DNA of 64,000 nucleotides from Thiothrix subterranea. Lineage in GTDB: Bacteria; Pseudomonadota; Gammaproteobacteria; Thiotrichales; Thiotrichaceae. Of the stretch, positions 6,765 through 14,959 are shown in pieces (within the stretch, counting starts at the first letter, position 1; every line of letters starts with the position of its first letter). The stretch lies in assembly GCF_016772315.1 (NCBI RefSeq), contig NZ_CP053482.1, positions 2,108,001-2,172,000 on the forward strand, written 5' to 3'. Under the pieces are notes generated by a model, which saw only the letters and a program-made list of their open reading frames with translations, had not been told where the DNA came from and made no database searches. A program made the translations under genes and the position numbers.

Positions 6765-9700
6765 ATGCAAGCCGCCATTAACCTTGAAATGACCCCTAAA
6801 TGCAAAGTTATCCGCCGCAATGGTCAGGTGACGGACTTCGACGGCAGCAAAATTCAGGTGGCAATGACCAAAGCCTTTTTGGATGTGGAAGGCAGCAATG
6901 CGTCAGGTTCGGCACGCATTCACGACACCGTGCGTAAGTTGACCGCGCAAGTGGTTGATGCTTTGTTGCGCCGCACCCCCGATGGCGGCATGGTGCATAT
7001 CGAAGACATTCAAGATCAAGTGGAGTTGGCGTTAATGCGAGCAGGTGAACACAAAGTGGCGCGGAGTTACGTGCTGTATCGCGCGGAACGGGCGCGGTTG
7101 CGTGCTGAAAAAGATGCCAAGAGCAAGAAAAAAGGCAAAAAATCCGAAAACGTGATCCACGTAAAATCCGTATCCGGCGATTTGAAACCGTTGGATGAAG
7201 AGCGGTTACGCAAAATTATCGCGGAAGCCGTCGAGGGTTTGGAGGGAGTCAGTGCTGAACAGGTAATGACTGCCACCATGCGCAATTTGTATGACGGCAT
7301 TTCTGAAAAAGAAGTTGCCACCGCGTTGATTATCAGTACCCGCGTCATGATTGACCGCGAACCCAACTATTCGCAAGCCGCTGCACGGATGTTGATGGAT
7401 AGTTTGCGCCGCGAAGCCTTGAGTTTCCTTGAAGGCCAACACACCGAAGCCACCCAGCACGAAATGGTTGAGCTTTATGCGGAAGTCTTGAAAAAAACCA
7501 TTCAGATCGGGGTCAAGGTCGAGCGTTTGGCGGATGATTTAGGGCGTTACGATCTGGCGAAACTGGGCGCGGCGATTAAGCCAGAACGCGATTTGCAGTT
7601 CACTTACCTCGGTTTGCAAACGCTGTATGACCGCTATTTCCTGCATCATGACGGGGTGCGTTTTGAATTGCCGCAGGTGTTTTTCATGCGCGTGGCAATG
7701 GGCTTGGCCATTAACGAAGTCGAGCGTGAAGACCGTGCGATTGAGTTTTACAACTTGCTGTCCAGCTTTGATTTCATGAGCAGCACGCCGACGCTGTTTA
7801 ATTCTGGAACATTGCGTCCGCAGTTGTCGTCTTGCTACCTGACTACCGTGCCTGACCATTTGGAAGGGATTTACGATGCGATTAAAGACAATGCCTTGCT
7901 GTCGAAATACGCCGGTGGCTTGGGTAACGACTGGTCACGGGTGCGCGGCATGGGGGCGCATATCAAAGGCACGAATGGCAAATCGCAAGGTGTTGTGCCG
8001 TTTTTGAAGGTGGCGAATGATACGGCGGTTGCGGTGAATCAGTGTTTCGCGCCGGATACGCAGCTTCACACCGCCGATGGCATTAAAGCCATTCGTGACG
8101 TGAAAGCGGGCGATTTGGTGCTGGGTATCAGCGGCACTTACCGCGAAGTCAAACGCGCGATGGTTTACAACCAGCACGATGCAATGGTAGCTCTGGATGT
8201 GAAGCATTCGATTGAACCCGTGAAAGTGACCGCAGGACATCCGTTCTACGCGCTGCGGGGTGTGCCGTTGGAGCAGGCGAACGACCGTGCTGTTAATTGG
8301 TTGGCAAAAGGCAAAGTGAAGCCGGAATGGGTCGAAGCAGCGCAGTTGCAAAAAGGTGATTATGTTGCACAAGTCATCCCGACCGAAACGGTGATGGTGG
8401 ATGGTTTTGATGCTGACGATGCGCGGCTGTACGGTATTTTGCTGGGTGATGGGCATTTGTCAAAAGACGGGATGCAATGGGGCATTTCAGGCAATCCACA
8501 AAATGACTCGCATCTTGATTTCGTGCGGGAGTATTTGGCTGAACGTGGTATCCATAGTTGGGAAAATGGGCGTGGCGAAACCTATACGCAAATTCATTGG
8601 GCAAGCGGTCGTGGTGTTGTGCGCAATGCCACTAACGGGCGCATTGTCGGAGCAGGTGCTGCAACGTTGCCGTTCAGCTATGACGATATTTACAACGCGC
8701 CAGGTGAAAAGCGGATTTCACGCCAATTCAGTCATTTACCCCGTCCACAAACCTTAGCATTGATTCAAGGTTTGCTGGAAACTGATGGCGGCGTGAGTCG
8801 CGGCAAGGAAATTTACTTCACCAATACCTCGCGTCAACTGGCGGAAGGTTTGCGTTATCAGTGCTTGCGTTTGGGAGTACCGACGGCTGGGCAATACCGT
8901 GAACGTGACAATGCCCATACAGGGACACGTTCTGACGGTACACAAATCGAATTTAACGGTATTACTAAAGCGTTTGATATTCGTATTCCTGCTGTGCCAG
9001 AAATCGCTGCACTGGTTGCTTGCCAGCCTATCGACAAGCGTAACTGGCTGACTTACAACGGTTGCGTCTTCAGCCGTGTACGGAGTGTGGAGACTGTTCC
9101 AACCCTGCCATTTGTGTTCGATTTGATTGTGGAAGGCGATGAGTCTTACATGACGACGGCGGCACTGGCGCACAATGGCGGCAAGCGGAAGGGCGCAGTC
9201 TGTGCCTATCTCGAAACTTGGCATATCGACATCGAAGACTTCCTCGAACTGCGCAAAAACACGGGCGACGAACGTCGCCGTACCCACGATATGAATACCG
9301 CCAACTGGATTCCTGACCTGTTCATGAAGCGTGTGGCAGCAGAAGCGGAATGGACGCTGTTTTCCCCCGATGATGCGCCCGATTTGCACGATTTAACCGG
9401 CAAAGCGTTTGAAGCGCGTTATGCCGAATACGAGGCCAAAGCAGCACGCGGCGAAATGAAATTATTCCGAAAACTGCCTGCACTGCAATTGTGGCGCAAA
9501 ATGTTGGGGATGATCTTTGAAACCGGGCATCCGTGGATTACCTTCAAAGACCCGTGCAATGTGCGCTATACCAATCAGCACATGGGTGTGGTGCATTCCA
9601 GCAATCTTTGTACTGAAATTACCTTGCACACCAATGACAGTGAAATTGCGGTATGCAATTTAGGATCGGTCAATCTGACCGCTCACGTCAACGACGGCAA

Positions 9701-10730
9701 GCTGGATGTAGCAAAACTGGAACGCACCGTGACCACCGCGATGCGGATGCTGGATAACGTCATCGACTACAATTACTACAGTGTGCCGCAAGCGCGAAAA
9801 TCCAACCTGCGCCACCGTCCGGTCGGCATGGGCATCATGGGTTTCCAAGACGCGCTGTACAAAATGAACCTCGCTTACGCCACGACCGAAGCGGTGGAGT
9901 TTGCCGATCAAAGTATGGAAGCGGTGTCGTATTTCGCGATTCGTGCGTCCAGCAACTTGGCGGCAGAACGCGGTAAATACCCAAGCTACAACGGTTCGTT
10001 GTGGAGCAAAGGCATCCTGCCCATCGACTCGCTGGAATTGTTGGGCGAAGAACGCGGTGAATACTTCGTGGTCGATCACACCCAAACGTTGGATTGGGAT
10101 GCATTGCGCAATCAGGTCAAAGCGCAGGGAATGCGCAATTCCAATGTGATGGCGATTGCTCCGACGGCGACGATTTCCAACATTTGCGGCGTGTCGCAGT
10201 CCATCGAGCCGACTTACCAGAACCTGTTCGTCAAATCCAATTTGTCGGGCGAATTCACCGTCATCAACCCGTATCTGGTACAGGATTTGAAAGCACTCGG
10301 CATGTGGGATGAGGTGATGATCAACGACCTCAAATACTTCGACGGTTCGTTACAACCGCTGGATCGTGTGCCGGACGCGCTCAAAGCCAAATACGCTACC
10401 GCGTTTGAAATCGACGCACGTTGGTTGGTCGAAGCCGCCAGCCGCCGCCAGAAATGGATTGATCAGGGGCAATCACTCAACCTGTACATGAAAGAGCCGA
10501 ATGGCACGAAGCTGGATAATCTCTATAAACTGGCGTGGGTGCGTGGGTTGAAGACCACGTATTACTTGCGCACTTTGGGGGCAACGGGCGCGGAAAAGAC
10601 CAGCTCGGATGATTCTTCGGCTGCGAATAGCGTGGCGGGGATTAAGCGGGCGGCGAATTTGGTATCGGTGGGGTCGGAAGCACCGAAGGCGTGTTCGTTG
10701 CTTGATCCAGAGTGTGAGGCTTGTCAGTAA
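6765..10730 (+). CDS. nrdA: Class I ribonucleotide reductase large subunit with embedded intein
   Basis: The 1321-residue precursor reduces ribonucleoside diphosphates to deoxy forms once the intein is removed; the remaining host protein is about 943 residues, like Pseudomonas-type NrdA. Two ATP-cone regulatory domains occupy about residues 10-120 and 128-225. Active-site features are LSSCYLTT (first redox Cys), SSNLCTEIT (thiyl-radical Cys), AVCNLGSVNL (second redox Cys), TTYYLRTLG (Tyr pair) and a C-terminal ECEACQ thioredoxin-interacting pair. Residues 427-804 are the intein, inserted between NQ and GGKRKG. The start has an AAAGGA site 7 bases upstream, and NrdR boxes lie in the promoter. 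An R-M cassette follows before nrdB. Confidence 0.96.
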   Translation: MQAAINLEMTPKCKVIRRNGQVTDFDGSKIQVAMTKAFLDVEGSNASGSARIHDTVRKLTAQVVDALLRRTPDGGMVHIEDIQDQVELALMRAGEHKVARSYVLYRAERARLRAEKDAKSKKKGKKSENVIHVKSVSGDLKPLDEERLRKIIAEAVEGLEGVSAEQVMTATMRNLYDGISEKEVATALIISTRVMIDREPNYSQAAARMLMDSLRREALSFLEGQHTEATQHEMVELYAEVLKKTIQIGVKVERLADDLGRYDLAKLGAAIKPERDLQFTYLGLQTLYDRYFLHHDGVRFELPQVFFMRVAMGLAINEVEREDRAIEFYNLLSSFDFMSSTPTLFNSGTLRPQLSSCYLTTVPDHLEGIYDAIKDNALLSKYAGGLGNDWSRVRGMGAHIKGTNGKSQGVVPFLKVANDTAVAVNQCFAPDTQLHTADGIKAIRDVKAGDLVLGISGTYREVKRAMVYNQHDAMVALDVKHSIEPVKVTAGHPFYALRGVPLEQANDRAVNWLAKGKVKPEWVEAAQLQKGDYVAQVIPTETVMVDGFDADDARLYGILLGDGHLSKDGMQWGISGNPQNDSHLDFVREYLAERGIHSWENGRGETYTQIHWASGRGVVRNATNGRIVGAGAATLPFSYDDIYNAPGEKRISRQFSHLPRPQTLALIQGLLETDGGVSRGKEIYFTNTSRQLAEGLRYQCLRLGVPTAGQYRERDNAHTGTRSDGTQIEFNGITKAFDIRIPAVPEIAALVACQPIDKRNWLTYNGCVFSRVRSVETVPTLPFVFDLIVEGDESYMTTAALAHNGGKRKGAVCAYLETWHIDIEDFLELRKNTGDERRRTHDMNTANWIPDLFMKRVAAEAEWTLFSPDDAPDLHDLTGKAFEARYAEYEAKAARGEMKLFRKLPALQLWRKMLGMIFETGHPWITFKDPCNVRYTNQHMGVVHSSNLCTEITLHTNDSEIAVCNLGSVNLTAHVNDGKLDVAKLERTVTTAMRMLDNVIDYNYYSVPQARKSNLRHRPVGMGIMGFQDALYKMNLAYATTEAVEFADQSMEAVSYFAIRASSNLAAERGKYPSYNGSLWSKGILPIDSLELLGEERGEYFVVDHTQTLDWDALRNQVKAQGMRNSNVMAIAPTATISNICGVSQSIEPTYQNLFVKSNLSGEFTVINPYLVQDLKALGMWDEVMINDLKYFDGSLQPLDRVPDALKAKYATAFEIDARWLVEAASRRQKWIDQGQSLNLYMKEPNGTKLDNLYKLAWVRGLKTTYYLRTLGATGAEKTSSDDSSAANSVAGIKRAANLVSVGSEAPKACSLLDPECEACQ
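8043..9176 (+). other. Intein with LAGLIDADG homing endonuclease, inside NrdA
   Basis: A 378-residue in-frame insertion (NrdA residues 427-804) with intein motifs: block A starts with Cys (CFAPDTQLHTADG), block B VTAGHPF has the Thr-x-x-His pair (T489, H492), LAGLIDADG dodecapeptides are LYGILLGDGHLS (D562) and LIQGLLETDGGVS (D674), block F/G includes PFVFDLIVEGDESYMT and ends TAALAHN with the penultimate His and terminal Asn. The flanking host residues VAVNQ/GGKRKG join into the normal NrdA sequence. The +1 residue after the Asn is Gly, not the Cys/Ser/Thr needed by the standard class 1 mechanism. Both endonuclease acidic residues are present, so homing activity is plausible. Confidence 0.92.
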
Positions 10731-10735
10731 GTCAT

Positions 10736-11383
10736 ATGAAACACTTAACTTTTGACCGCAACGAACACCTCTACACCAGTACCGCGTTCGCTGAACTGGT
10801 CAAAGATGCGGTCAGGTTTTTCAACGGAACTCCCGTGCACACACTCCCGCCTCCTGAAACCTTTGGGGGAACGGGCGTGTATGCCATCTATTACACCGGG
10901 CAGCATCCGGCGTATCAGAAATATGCAGAGTTGAATCGTCTTGCCTACAACTTCCCTATTTACGTGGGCAAAGCCGTTCCCAAAGGTTGGCGGCAGGCGC
11001 GATTGTCAGATGATGTGTTGAACCAGTCGAAGGAATTGCACACCCGCTTACGTGAACATGCCCGCAGTATCGGCGCGGCAAGCAGTCTGGCAGTTGAAGA
11101 TTTCATGTGCCGTTTCGTCATCTTTGAAGGTGAAGCTTCGGATATGATTAGCACGATTGAAGCGGCACTGATCAAACTCAATATGCCGCTGTGGAATACG
11201 GTAGTGGATGGTTTCGGCAATCATGACCCCGGCAAAGGCCGTTACGAACAGGCTAAATCTGATTGGGATGTCATCCATCCGGGGCGTGCTTGGGCGGAAA
11301 AGTGCAAAGGGGTGCATTCCTCCGCAGCCACCATTTTTGCACGGGTTAATGTTCATCTGAATCAGTTGGGTAGCCAGTCATGA
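10736..11383 (+). CDS. Eco29kI-family GIY-YIG restriction endonuclease
   Basis: A 215-residue protein matching Eco29kI (214 residues), a type II enzyme with a GIY-YIG fold that cuts CCGCGG. Catalytic features are GVYAIYY and IYVGKA (the two Tyr and the Lys), the Arg/His in RLREHARSI, the Glu in STIEAALI and the Asn in PLWNTVVDG; the DPGKGRYEQAKSDWDVIHPG block is also shared. The start at MKHLTFDRNEHLY matches Eco29kI's N-terminus; an upstream in-frame TTG overlaps nrdA. It begins 5 bases after the nrdA stop and overlaps the methyltransferase by four bases (ATGA), the same R-then-M order as Eco29kI. Its exact target is inferred. Confidence 0.93.
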   Translation: MKHLTFDRNEHLYTSTAFAELVKDAVRFFNGTPVHTLPPPETFGGTGVYAIYYTGQHPAYQKYAELNRLAYNFPIYVGKAVPKGWRQARLSDDVLNQSKELHTRLREHARSIGAASSLAVEDFMCRFVIFEGEASDMISTIEAALIKLNMPLWNTVVDGFGNHDPGKGRYEQAKSDWDVIHPGRAWAEKCKGVHSSAATIFARVNVHLNQLGSQS

Positions 11384-12567
11384 AAACGCTGGAACTGTTC
11401 TCCGGTGCAGGCGGATTGGCAAAAGGATTGGAGCTTGCTGGTTTTCATCACGTCAAATTGGTGGAATTCAATAAACACGCTTGCGCCACCCTGCAAGCTA
11501 ATTTCGGTGCGGAAAAAGTCTTCGTAGGGGATATTCGTGATTTCAGCTACGACGGCTTGAAGGGTGTGGACATCGTAGCAGGTGGCCCGCCCTGTCAGCC
11601 GTTTTCCTTGGGTGGCAAGCATCAGGCGGATCAGGATCATCGCGATATGTTCCCCTATGCCATCAACGCCATTCGCGAGCTGCAACCCAAAGCGTTCATT
11701 TTTGAAAACGTAAAAGGCTTATTGCGCTCATCCTTCGCTGATTACTTTGAATACATTGTGCTACGCCTGACCTTTCCCGACTATAAACCCAAATTCGGAT
11801 TGGATTGGCAGTTACACCTGCAATTACTCAGAAAGCTCAAGTACGAAACCCATCAAGGGCTGAAATACAAGGTGGCTTATCAGCTTGTCAATGCGGCGGA
11901 TTACGGTGTGCCGCAAAGCCGTGAACGGGTGTTCATGGTCGGTATCCGTGATGATCTGGAGGTGGAATGGGTATTTCCTGCTCCAACACATTCCGATAGT
12001 CGCTTGTTGTGGGACAAATTTGTGACAGGCGAATACTGGGAAAAATACGGTTTGGCGCATGAGCAGCGTGAACAGCCGAATGCAGCAATCCAAAAGCAAG
12101 TAAATGCGCTCAAAACCCGTTATGGTTTGTTCCCGCCTGTGCTGAAACCTTGGCAAACCGTGCGTGATGCGTTGGGACATTTGCCAGACCCGCGCTCTGA
12201 TCATGCTATTCCTGATCACATTTTCCGTGATGGCGCACGGGTGTATCCGGGGCATACTGGCAGTGATCATGACTTGCCTGCCAAAACCTTGAAAGCGGGT
12301 GGGCATGGCGTACCGGGTGGCGAAAATATGCTGCGTTACCGTGATGGCTCGGTGCGCTATTTCACTGTGCATGAAGCCAAGTTGCTGCAAACCTTCCCGG
12401 CAGATTTTTATATCGAAGGCGCGTGGGGCGAAGCAATGCGGCAGATCGGGAATGCCGTGCCAGTGCATTTGTCCCAAACACTCGGTAAGGCTTTGCGCAC
12501 AACATTGCAGCAAGCCAAACCAGCGTTTGAACAAACAATGCCGTTGGCTTTTGCGGTAGGTGCATGA
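11380..12567 (+). CDS. DNA (cytosine-5) methyltransferase, M.Eco29kI-like
   Basis: A 395-residue m5C methyltransferase protecting the host from the adjacent endonuclease. Motifs run in standard order: I (LELFSGAGGLAKGLELAG), IV with the catalytic Cys (GGPPCQPFS), VI (FIFENVKGL), VIII (PQSRERVFMVG), a target-recognition region of about 100 residues, IX (RYFTVHEAKLLQTFP) and X (IGNAVPVHL). The gene overlaps the endonuclease upstream and the second methyltransferase downstream by four bases each, so the three are translationally coupled. The likely target is CCGCGG by homology. Confidence 0.95.
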   Translation: MKTLELFSGAGGLAKGLELAGFHHVKLVEFNKHACATLQANFGAEKVFVGDIRDFSYDGLKGVDIVAGGPPCQPFSLGGKHQADQDHRDMFPYAINAIRELQPKAFIFENVKGLLRSSFADYFEYIVLRLTFPDYKPKFGLDWQLHLQLLRKLKYETHQGLKYKVAYQLVNAADYGVPQSRERVFMVGIRDDLEVEWVFPAPTHSDSRLLWDKFVTGEYWEKYGLAHEQREQPNAAIQKQVNALKTRYGLFPPVLKPWQTVRDALGHLPDPRSDHAIPDHIFRDGARVYPGHTGSDHDLPAKTLKAGGHGVPGGENMLRYRDGSVRYFTVHEAKLLQTFPADFYIEGAWGEAMRQIGNAVPVHLSQTLGKALRTTLQQAKPAFEQTMPLAFAVGA

Positions 12568-13643
12568 TCGCTATGAGTGTTTTATTTTGCAATCACGAAA
12601 CCAGACCCTACACTGGTATTGTACTTGAACGCATCAAGCACTTGCCACCCGGCGGAAAAATGGGTGATTTACCCCCGCATTTGCAACATGAAAGTTTTGT
12701 GCGCACGGGTGCAAAGAAAACAGGCGGCCCCAACATGCGCCTGCTGCGTTTGGAACACGACAAACCCGCATTGACAGTAACAGCGTACATTTTCAATAAG
12801 TTTGTCCACCCAACAGAAGATCGTTATTTGACCCCACGCGAAGCCGCCACCTTGCAGGATTTCCCAGTAGACTACGTTTTTATGGGAACACAAGGGCAAA
12901 TCCATCAGCAAATCGGCAATGCTGTTCCGGTCAAATTGGGTAAAGCGATTGCAGGGGAAGTGGCTAATTACTTTGTGAAGCAAGGGCAAACGGGGCAGAT
13001 TAACATCGCCTCCTATTTTTGCGGGGCAGGTGGTTTAGACTTGGGATTTGAACAGGCTAGTCATGCGCTTGTTCAATTTAAGACCTGCTTTTCGACGGAT
13101 ATAGAAGAGCCTGTAGAAAAAACAATTTGTAAAAACAGACCAGAATGGAATTTTCAGCGTGCCGACATTCGGGAGCTTGAACCGGAACAGGTGCGACTAT
13201 CCATCGGCAGTAATCCCGATGTCATTATTGGCGGCCCACCTTGCCAGCCTTTTAGCGTCGCAGGCAAGCAGAAAGCGACCCATGACCCGTTAGGTATTTT
13301 ATACCGCGATTACATCCGCCATATTGCCTACCTCAAACCTCGGATGGTGGTAATGGAAAATGTCTATGGTCTTGCGCAAGTCAAGAGTGCCAACATGATT
13401 GAAGAAATCTACCAATCATTTGCGGACATCGGTTACGACGTGACCCACAGCGAGTTGATGGCGGCTGATTACGGCACACCTCAAAAACGGCGAAGGCTAT
13501 TTTTTGTGGCGGCGCAAAATTTGGCAGGTTTCCATTTTCCAGAGCCGACACACAGTGAATATGCCAATCTTTTAGGACTACCACGTTACGTGGGAGCGGG
13601 AGAAATACTCGCAACCTTACCACCTGCCAGCTTCAAACCTTAG
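12564..13643 (+). CDS. Circularly permuted DNA (cytosine-5) methyltransferase
   Basis: A 359-residue m5C methyltransferase with permuted motif order. The N-terminal part (about 1-140) has what normally lies at the end: a target-recognition-like stretch (FVRTGAKKTGGPNMRLLRL, then TVTAYIFNKFVHP), motif IX (RYLTPREAATLQDFP) and motif X (IGNAVPVKLG). Motifs I (IASYFCGAGGLDLGFE), IV with the catalytic Cys (GGPPCQPFSVAGK), VI (MVVMENVYGL) and VIII (PQKRRRLFFV) follow. The C-terminus stops at ATLPPASFKP, just where a normal enzyme would enter the segment that begins this protein. M.BssHII is a known permuted example. A fusion of two gene remnants is possible, but all motifs appear once and complete. 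An alternative ATG lies at 12573. Confidence 0.85.
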   Translation: MIAMSVLFCNHETRPYTGIVLERIKHLPPGGKMGDLPPHLQHESFVRTGAKKTGGPNMRLLRLEHDKPALTVTAYIFNKFVHPTEDRYLTPREAATLQDFPVDYVFMGTQGQIHQQIGNAVPVKLGKAIAGEVANYFVKQGQTGQINIASYFCGAGGLDLGFEQASHALVQFKTCFSTDIEEPVEKTICKNRPEWNFQRADIRELEPEQVRLSIGSNPDVIIGGPPCQPFSVAGKQKATHDPLGILYRDYIRHIAYLKPRMVVMENVYGLAQVKSANMIEEIYQSFADIGYDVTHSELMAADYGTPQKRRRLFFVAAQNLAGFHFPEPTHSEYANLLGLPRYVGAGEILATLPPASFKP

Positions 13644-13678: not shown

Positions 13679-14959
13679 ATGACGCTTAATTGGGATAACC
13701 CACTTGCCGCACCCGTGCCGCGCACGAACGGCTATCAACCGGCTTTTAGTTTTGACGAAGTGTTTGTTGAAGAACCTACTGTGGAGGTAGATGAAAGTGA
13801 GCTCAGTGCAAAAACCCAAGTTGCAGTTAAATCGCCAACGGAGTCGGCGACGCTTGCAACGGCGGTAACAGAGGCGGCTTCTCACAGAACTGTAGAAGCC
13901 GCTCCAACGGTCAGCGCTACCCGCCAGCCGTCTGCACCAGAGACTTTCAAACCTCAACAGCCGATCAGTAGCGCTGACAAGCGCGTGATCAATGGCAGTG
14001 GCGACATCAACCAACTTGCGCCGTTCAAATACCCGTGGGCATGGGATTTTTTCCTCAACGCCAACAAAAATCACTGGACACCGCTCGACATCAATATGGC
14101 GCAGGATGTGCATGACTACCATCACAACCTCAGCCCCGCCGAACGTCACGTTTATGAAAACGTGCTGGCTTACTTGACCACTTCCGACATTCTGGCGATG
14201 CGCAATATTGGCTTGGCAGTCATGGAAAAAATGACCGCGCCGGAATTGCAAATCTACCAAGCCCGCCAAGTGTACGAAGAAGCCCTGCATACCTGGACAT
14301 ACCAGCATTGCATCGAAACCATCGGCTTGGATCAGGTGGAAATCTATAACCGTTACCGCGTCGTGCCGGAAATCAATGCCAAAATTCAACTGGCGAACCG
14401 GCGCTTAAACGATGCGCTGCGCCATGACATTGACCTGAAGAATCGCGACGATCTGCACAATTTTGTAATGTCGTATACCTTCTTTTCAGGGATTTTTGAA
14501 GGCTGCTGGTTCTACAACGGTTTCTCACCGATTTTTGCGCTGCAACGTCGGGGCATGATGAAAGGTACGGGTGAGCAATTTCAATACATTATGCGCGATG
14601 AAGTAATGCACGCTTCGTTTGGTATTCGCGTGGTGCGCCAAATCATGCAGGAAGAAAACGTGACACTCGACCCGCAAGCGGTGCGCGATATGTGGGATGA
14701 GGCGGAAGCAGCAGAAATCAACTATTCCAAGTACATCCTGCCGACGCCGATTTTGGGTTATAGCCAGCAAGACCATCACGAACAGTTCCGTTTTATTGCG
14801 AACCGTCGGGCGCGTCAGTTGGGCATGGCAGAACCGTTCCCCGGTGCGCAAAATGCCCTGCCTTGGTTGGACGAGCAGTCCAATATGCGTAAGGAAAAGA
14901 ACTTCTTTGAAACGCGCGTGACGGAATACCAAACGGGCGGGGCGCTGAAGTGGGATTAA
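13679..14959 (+). CDS. nrdB: Class Ia ribonucleotide reductase small (radical) subunit
   Basis: A 426-residue R2 subunit that houses the diiron/tyrosyl radical for NrdA. Metal ligands are visible: Asp170 (TTSDILAM), Glu201 and His204 (EEALHTWTY), the Glu in FEGCWFYNGF, and Glu/His in RDEVMHASFG. The radical Tyr is Tyr208, four residues after His204, as in class Ia enzymes. The first roughly 110 residues are a low-complexity extension rich in Ala, Thr, Ser and Val before the conserved core starts near NQLAPFKYPWAW. The gene lies 35 bases after the permuted methyltransferase with an AGGAGAG site, and a terminator follows. It presumably shares the nrdA transcript through the R-M cassette. Confidence 0.96.
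   Translation: MTLNWDNPLAAPVPRTNGYQPAFSFDEVFVEEPTVEVDESELSAKTQVAVKSPTESATLATAVTEAASHRTVEAAPTVSATRQPSAPETFKPQQPISSADKRVINGSGDINQLAPFKYPWAWDFFLNANKNHWTPLDINMAQDVHDYHHNLSPAERHVYENVLAYLTTSDILAMRNIGLAVMEKMTAPELQIYQARQVYEEALHTWTYQHCIETIGLDQVEIYNRYRVVPEINAKIQLANRRLNDALRHDIDLKNRDDLHNFVMSYTFFSGIFEGCWFYNGFSPIFALQRRGMMKGTGEQFQYIMRDEVMHASFGIRVVRQIMQEENVTLDPQAVRDMWDEAEAAEINYSKYILPTPILGYSQQDHHEQFRFIANRRARQLGMAEPFPGAQNALPWLDEQSNMRKEKNFFETRVTEYQTGGALKWD

Follow-up and report, generated by a model that had tools for sequence, protein, structure and literature searches.

Textbook protein splicing requires a Cys, Ser or Thr immediately after the intein, at the +1 position. This locus of Thiothrix subterranea raises the question of how an intein could leave its host enzyme when that residue is Gly. 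The window analyzed here is a stretch of 64,000 nucleotides (contig NZ_CP053482.1, positions 2,108,001 to 2,172,000), and nrdA, its intein and nrdB all lie on its forward strand. An open reading frame at 6765-10730 encodes a 1321 aa precursor that matches the NCBIfam model PRK07207.1 with 1663 bits (cut-off 965), identifying it as nrdA, the gene for the alpha subunit of class I ribonucleotide reductase (RNR). The frame is interrupted in-frame by 378 codons at exactly 8043-9176, which separate an N-extein (6765-8042) ending in AVAVNQ from a C-extein (9177-10730). A preliminary description of this locus held that the intein begins with Cys, ends with His-Asn and is followed by a host Gly, and the codons confirm this. 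Cys1, the proposed thioester nucleophile, is at 8043-8045, the penultimate His377 and terminal Asn378 are at 9171-9176, and Gly+1 (9177-9179) and Gly+2 (9180-9182) form the loop 2 Gly-Gly of NrdA. The gene for the small subunit partner, nrdB, is at 13679-14959 (PF00268, E=8.9e-65). The interval between nrdA and nrdB (10736-13643) encodes a restriction enzyme of the Eco29kI type (PF09517, E=4.6e-72) together with two C5 cytosine methyltransferases. The second methyltransferase (12564-13643) seems to be circularly permuted: its residues 147-321 align with the first half of the Pfam profile.

The junctions were fixed with an uninterrupted NrdA from the same genus (L030, genome G003), which reads DTAVAVNQGGKRRGAVCAY and AVAVNQGGKRRGAVCAY around the site and contains VNQGGKRRG. 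Because this intein-free protein is continuous at Gln/Gly, the host sequence rejoins exactly there, as had been proposed from the flanks VAVNQ/GGKRKG. Alignment to human RRM1 (3hnc) places the insertion point between Gln288, the -1 residue of the N-extein, and Gly289, in RNR loop 2. Passages of PMC3267527 describe loop 2 as coupling effector and substrate and its Gln (Q288 in yeast, Q203 in T. maritima) as pointing towards the substrate. In the human and P. aeruginosa sequences aligned here, this Gln likewise precedes Gly-Gly. Therefore, any intein at this point must cope with Gly at +1.

Gly+1 is fixed throughout an entire lineage of inteins that share one insertion site in NrdA. With a profile of the intein only (A1), which requires no host letters, the N-junction VNQ/Cys was read in 79 of 79 unique NrdA sequences and the C-junction Asn/Gly-Gly in 77 of 77, the window included in both counts. 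The penultimate residue was His throughout the readable NrdA C-junctions with a single Ser exception. A separate reading that required the final Asn gave Gly+1 and Gly+2 in 76 of 76. Profile A1 was built from 12 of the 13 inteins of the related-genome search (L006, with ambiguous residues, was left out). Among the 102 loci read, L116 had no match, L058 lacked an N end, and L104, L111, L112 and L174 lacked a C end. The sole host other than NrdA with a readable C end was the DnaE of L058, with Ser at +1. Residue conservation within the intein was counted in a set of 61 inteins chosen by a search requiring VNQ, Cys1, final Asn and GGKR, so that counts of VNQ, Cys, Asn and Gly in this set are circular. 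Alignment A2 contains the window intein and 59 others (60 of the 61; L062, with X, is out) and alignment A3 the window intein and 29 of 48 usable loci. The preliminary description, which suggested looking at homologues with the same insertion point, had named a different junction or a sequencing error as what would overturn it. Neither was found; the intein-free NrdA and the 77 agreeing junctions rule out both a shifted junction and a sequencing error.

This lineage is found in Thiothrix, other proteobacteria and Chlamydiota. Searches with the intein alone gave matches in 13 of 40 related genomes, its own included. The intein was in NrdA of nine of 369 class-sampled genomes, again counting its own, and a tenth match there was a DnaE intein. 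The same junction with Thr (GGTR, an NrdJ-like form) was absent from these 369 genomes. Among 398 genomes sampled from the phylum of the window, its own genome alone matched. Fifty-seven loci matched in the GTDB contig collection, some of them from the same genomes as other samples, and 22 of 232 genomes matched in the phylum of genome G769, a record titled Chlamydiae; of these, 20 were fetched and all 20 carried the intein at the NrdA site. The Gly+1 NrdA inteins of this phylum (L155-L174) include shortened forms such as L173.

Plasmids gave no match to the window intein. Seventeen phage records matched, all below 60% identity, and the eight listed of the 17 were 24-32% identical. In viral contigs the pattern His-Asn-Gly-Gly-Lys-Arg was found in 18 contigs, eight of which are RNR genes with an intein at the loop 2 site; because the pattern itself demanded Gly+1, this set shows spread and not invariance. 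The N side is truncated in three of these eight inteins; the other five are complete and share 30-60% identity with the window intein. In L129, one of the viral Gly+1 inteins, position 63 is Ser and nothing aligns with the block F Asp. Scanning the viral contigs with the intein profile gave one distant match, in another host protein (L116). Four matches to GGTR in viral contigs were rejected, all lying in a stop-rich frame. In a tree of 30 rows (18 of the 61 family members, five of the eight viral inteins and seven inteins with Cys or Ser at +1), a grouping of the Gly+1 inteins with support of 82/27 and long branches gives a faint hint that they could share a single origin.

We examined whether the insert has the anatomy of an intein. 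The window intein matches Pfam LAGLIDADG_3 (E=2.2e-11), and Hint and intein Pfam models, Hint_2 and PT-HINT among them, match it only below their curated cut-offs. No PDB chain was found by phmmer at E <= 0.001. An AlphaFold2 model (pLDDT 88.9, pTM 0.88) used with Foldseek had as best matches the PI-SceI mini-precursor (1ef0, E=1.9e-19) and TliVMA (7qsu, E=2.5e-19). We take the conserved blocks to be A, B (TAGH), F (VFDLIVEG) and G (ALAHN). Block B is Thr63-Ala-Gly-His66 (8229-8240), and block F includes Asp360 (9120-9122) and Glu367 (9141-9143), which we take to be F:4 and F:13 in intein block numbering. Thr63, His66 and Asp360 are invariant in the 61 aligned inteins. The homing endonuclease region, with approximate limits of 8427-8975 that were also used as the split for selection analysis, contains two LAGLIDADG-type motifs, LLGDG (8439-8453) with Asp136 and LLETDG (8772-8789) with Asp248. 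Both catalytic acids are present in the window copy, in agreement with the earlier impression of intact motifs, and both are present in 53 of 61 family members. The insert is an intein with a LAGLIDADG endonuclease, for which DNA cleavage at the empty nrdA site is predicted from the motifs, with indirect support from the independent acquisition in G007 described below.

Comparison of inteins and their hosts points to mobility. The intein of genome G007 is 49% identical to that of the window and the exteins differ by a dN of only 0.038; since the inteins diverge while the exteins are nearly alike, the intein arrived independently at the same site in G007. In the tree this intein groups with L099, from a metagenome-assembled genome titled Gammaproteobacteria, apart from the Thiothrix rows (96/91). 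The intein at the G007 locus, L011, is the one also present at L108 (T. fructosivorans). Genomes G009 and G012 carry inteins of 315 aa (L016, L017) whose splicing domain is near that of G000 (dS 0.14-0.22, versus 0.32-0.40 for the exteins) and whose endonuclease remnant is far from it (dN 0.31-0.32). This mosaic structure suggests recombination or domain replacement. From the motifs and one independent acquisition we infer that the endonuclease spreads the intein between nrdA genes.

Because failure to restore NrdA should be lethal where NrdA is the only reductase, a point made in the preliminary description along with the suggestion to look for nrdJ or nrdD, we searched for other reductases. 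In its own genome the NrdD model gave no match, and all matches to the NrdJ model fell on this NrdA; both models give matches in control genomes. Searches with the NrdD, NrdJ and NrdA models rule out a hidden second reductase there, and the premise that NrdA is essential in this genome holds within reach of the models used. No NrdD, NrdJ or second NrdA was found in 11 of 19 intein genomes (G000, G008, G009, G011, G012, G013, G017, G019, G080, G120 and G174), where G080, G120 and G174 were scanned with the NrdJ and NrdD models only and the NrdJ model also matches NrdA. One further weak, stop-ridden reductase fragment is present in G120. The other eight have another reductase or a second NrdA: NrdD in G001, G004 and G006, an NrdD in two pieces below cut-off in G007, NrdJ in G113 and G159, an NrdJ-like gene just below cut-off in G380, and a second NrdA in G020. 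Searches for class I and II enzymes found no second alpha subunit of either class in five of eight further genomes (G769-G773), four of which belong to the G769 phylum. In G113 and G159, NrdJ is itself interrupted by Cys+1 inteins at TNP/C...HN/C (L143, L144), and the NrdA of both has the Gly+1 intein.

Traces of selection were sought in the intein itself. In eight of the 61 inteins one or both endonuclease motifs are without their Asp, yet the splicing residues are kept; at least two groups of these eight are close relatives. The two 315-aa inteins of G009 and G012 share the same endonuclease deletion, and their splicing domains differ by 24 synonymous and 7 nonsynonymous changes (dN/dS 0.08). 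This departs from neutrality with P ~4e-10, or 2.5e-5 when the expected nonsynonymous share of changes is lowered to 60% (site numbers back-calculated). The residual endonuclease region, with 9 synonymous and 4 nonsynonymous differences, also looks constrained, so constraint in this pair is not confined to the splicing domain. The selection table covered 10 of the 13 genomes of the related-genome set, and the pairs listed involve G000, G009 or G012. Among those without G007, splicing-domain dN/dS was 0.03-0.11 where computable (some are saturated), and it was 0.02-0.06 for the flanking exteins; pairs with G007 gave 0.22-0.27, near saturation. Selection shows that the processing residues matter, a pattern that both splicing and precise cleavage fit. 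Taken with the invariance of the junction, the conserved splicing residues and the 11 of 19 genomes with no other reductase found, it is very likely that the window intein splices and does so without a branch at +1.

We compared the Gly+1 family with known systems. It shares with class 1 LAGLIDADG inteins (PI-SceI/Sce VMA, TliVMA) the fold, Cys1, the block B Thr and His, the block F Asp, the His-Asn end and in-frame insertion in an important enzyme. By the features that define class 1, Cys1, the block B TxxH and the terminal Asn (77/77) are present, but no Cys, Ser or Thr is found at +1. A further difference is in block F, where position 367 is His in six of seven comparison inteins with Cys or Ser at +1, but in only two of the 61 Gly+1 inteins, which mostly have Glu, and in none of five viral ones; with a comparison set that is small and partly related, this contrast is a lead only. 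The intein of L011/L108 is the only member with Ser in place of the penultimate His and is also one of the two of 61 with His367, a possible compensating pair. Class 3 (WCT) inteins also depart from the class 1 route, and PMC5050341 describes them as having no nucleophile at position 1 and using a block F Cys instead. Unlike these, the Gly+1 family has an invariant Cys1 (79/79) and Asp at F:4 (61/61), which rules out a class 3 route by way of a block F Cys. Second-site NrdA inteins (V/CFPAGT...VVHN/CNLG; L139, L140, L141 and L142 in G005, G015, G017 and G020) occur in the same host protein and the same bacterial family, but they have a canonical Cys+1 and are 19-22% identical to the window intein. 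In G017 and G020 both inteins lie within one NrdA frame.

There is also a likeness in residues to type A bacterial intein-like (BIL) domains, which share the His-Asn end (one Gly+1 family member ends in Ser-Asn) and a non-nucleophilic +1 residue. BIL domains are not known to carry an endonuclease or to lie in conserved essential enzymes; they occur in other kinds of protein. By contrast, the Gly+1 intein is mobile, matches LAGLIDADG_3, and sits at one site in the conserved enzyme NrdA, where precise ligation seems to be required. The annotated relatives of the window intein are inteins and homing endonucleases; the likeness to BIL domains is drawn from the residues and from published description. 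The proposal for type A BIL splicing, as outlined in passages of PMC4031507, involves a Cys1 thioester, Asn cyclization and attack by the free amino group, with no nucleophile at +1. The residues needed for this route are all invariant in the Gly+1 family.

Because the +1 nucleophile is absent, the branched intermediate of the second standard step is impossible in the usual way. We propose instead that Cys1 would attack the Gln-Cys bond to form a thioester, and that Asn378, helped by His377, would then cyclize to free the C-extein with an N-terminal Gly-Gly. The residues of these two steps are observed. By analogy with type A BIL domains, from which such chemistry is mainly known so far, the two NrdA halves would remain docked while the unhindered amine of Gly attacks the Cys1 thioester. 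This would restore the native Gln288-Gly289 bond without calling on any C-extein side chain as nucleophile. The amine of Gly is well suited to such an attack, as sortase acceptors illustrate. An AlphaFold2 model of a 1001-residue precursor that included both exteins was of low quality (pTM 0.46), so it carries no information about extein docking. At a probability of roughly 70%, our preferred reading is that the window intein is functional and mobile, belongs to a lineage specialised for RNR loop 2, and most likely splices without a branched intermediate. The preliminary description had left a choice between a non-standard splicing route and cleavage only, lethal if NrdA is the sole reductase. 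Splicing without a +1 nucleophile is the option that the evidence favours and the premise of a sole reductase stands within the models used, but that account missed the type A BIL precedent and the fixation of Gly+1 across the lineage.

Other readings start from the same residues. Apart from Cys1, no Cys is conserved in 95% or more of the 61 inteins. It is conceivable, if unlikely, that an intein side chain substitutes for +1 much as in class 3 inteins: Thr371 or Ser368 would accept the acyl group of Cys1, and only then would Asn cyclize. Thr371 is present in 61 of 61 inteins and Ser368 in 60 of 61, and Ala is at 371 in all six Cys+1 comparison inteins (two groups, of four and two rows). However, Thr371 is also in the Ser+1 DnaE intein L058, the viral Gly+1 intein L134 aligns Ile there, and the Cys that class 3 inteins have at F:4 is replaced by Asp in all 61 aligned inteins; by reasoning, the final step would still require the Gly amine. 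A distant nucleophile in the C-extein, Cys+9, is very improbable as the branch point. This Cys is found in 61 of 61 sequences, but intein-free NrdA has it too (L030; 5im3), so it reflects host conservation. Among the viral sequences, the 22 host residues read downstream of the intein contain no Cys in L120, L123 and L132, and in L132 no Ser or Thr either.

A different kind of explanation, which we think quite improbable, is cleavage at both ends without ligation, the two NrdA fragments then acting together as a two-chain enzyme. Phage Aeh1 is described in PMC3267527 and PMC2988022 as having an active NrdA of two polypeptides, and reviews including PMC4031507 state that BIL products are mainly cleaved rather than spliced. 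Here, though, the break would sit inside loop 2, adjoining the substrate-facing Gln, and the NrdA of G017 and G020 carries a canonical Cys+1 intein as well. Cleavage at the C-terminus alone would not need Cys1, yet Cys1 is conserved in 79 of 79 sequences, with precise double cleavage still compatible. A mis-assigned junction, a sequence error or a dead intein has a negligible probability, since nothing was found in its favour and the junction evidence and purifying selection stand against it. For the preferred reading, splicing without a branch, an essential enzyme should need efficient ligation, and a yield higher than that of BIL domains has no explanation here. A more far-reaching form of it, to which we give about even odds, is that RNR loop 2 hosts an old and widespread lineage that splices efficiently and obligatorily without a C-extein nucleophile, through Asn cyclization followed by sortase-like attack of the Gly-Gly amine on the Cys1 thioester. 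Such a mechanism would give true mobile inteins a fourth natural way to splice, and losing the block F His may have helped to tune it.

No account of an RNR intein with Gly+1 turned up in the openly licensed papers searched; subscription papers and InBase are outside this scope and an earlier notice there is possible. Among the papers searched, Thiothrix together with intein led to one Desulfonema paper, which reports GyrB and DnaE inteins. An earlier report of nrdA inteins in ocean metagenomes is cited in a passage of PMC3653736.

If the preferred reading holds, true inteins can do without the branched intermediate, and a natural lineage lives without a +1 nucleophile in an enzyme for which many of its hosts seem to have no substitute. 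It would link inteins to BIL domains and would provide inteins that join their exteins at Gly-Gly with no Cys, Ser or Thr scar. With dozens of natural sequences available, including the 315-aa endonuclease-reduced forms, the question is directly testable.
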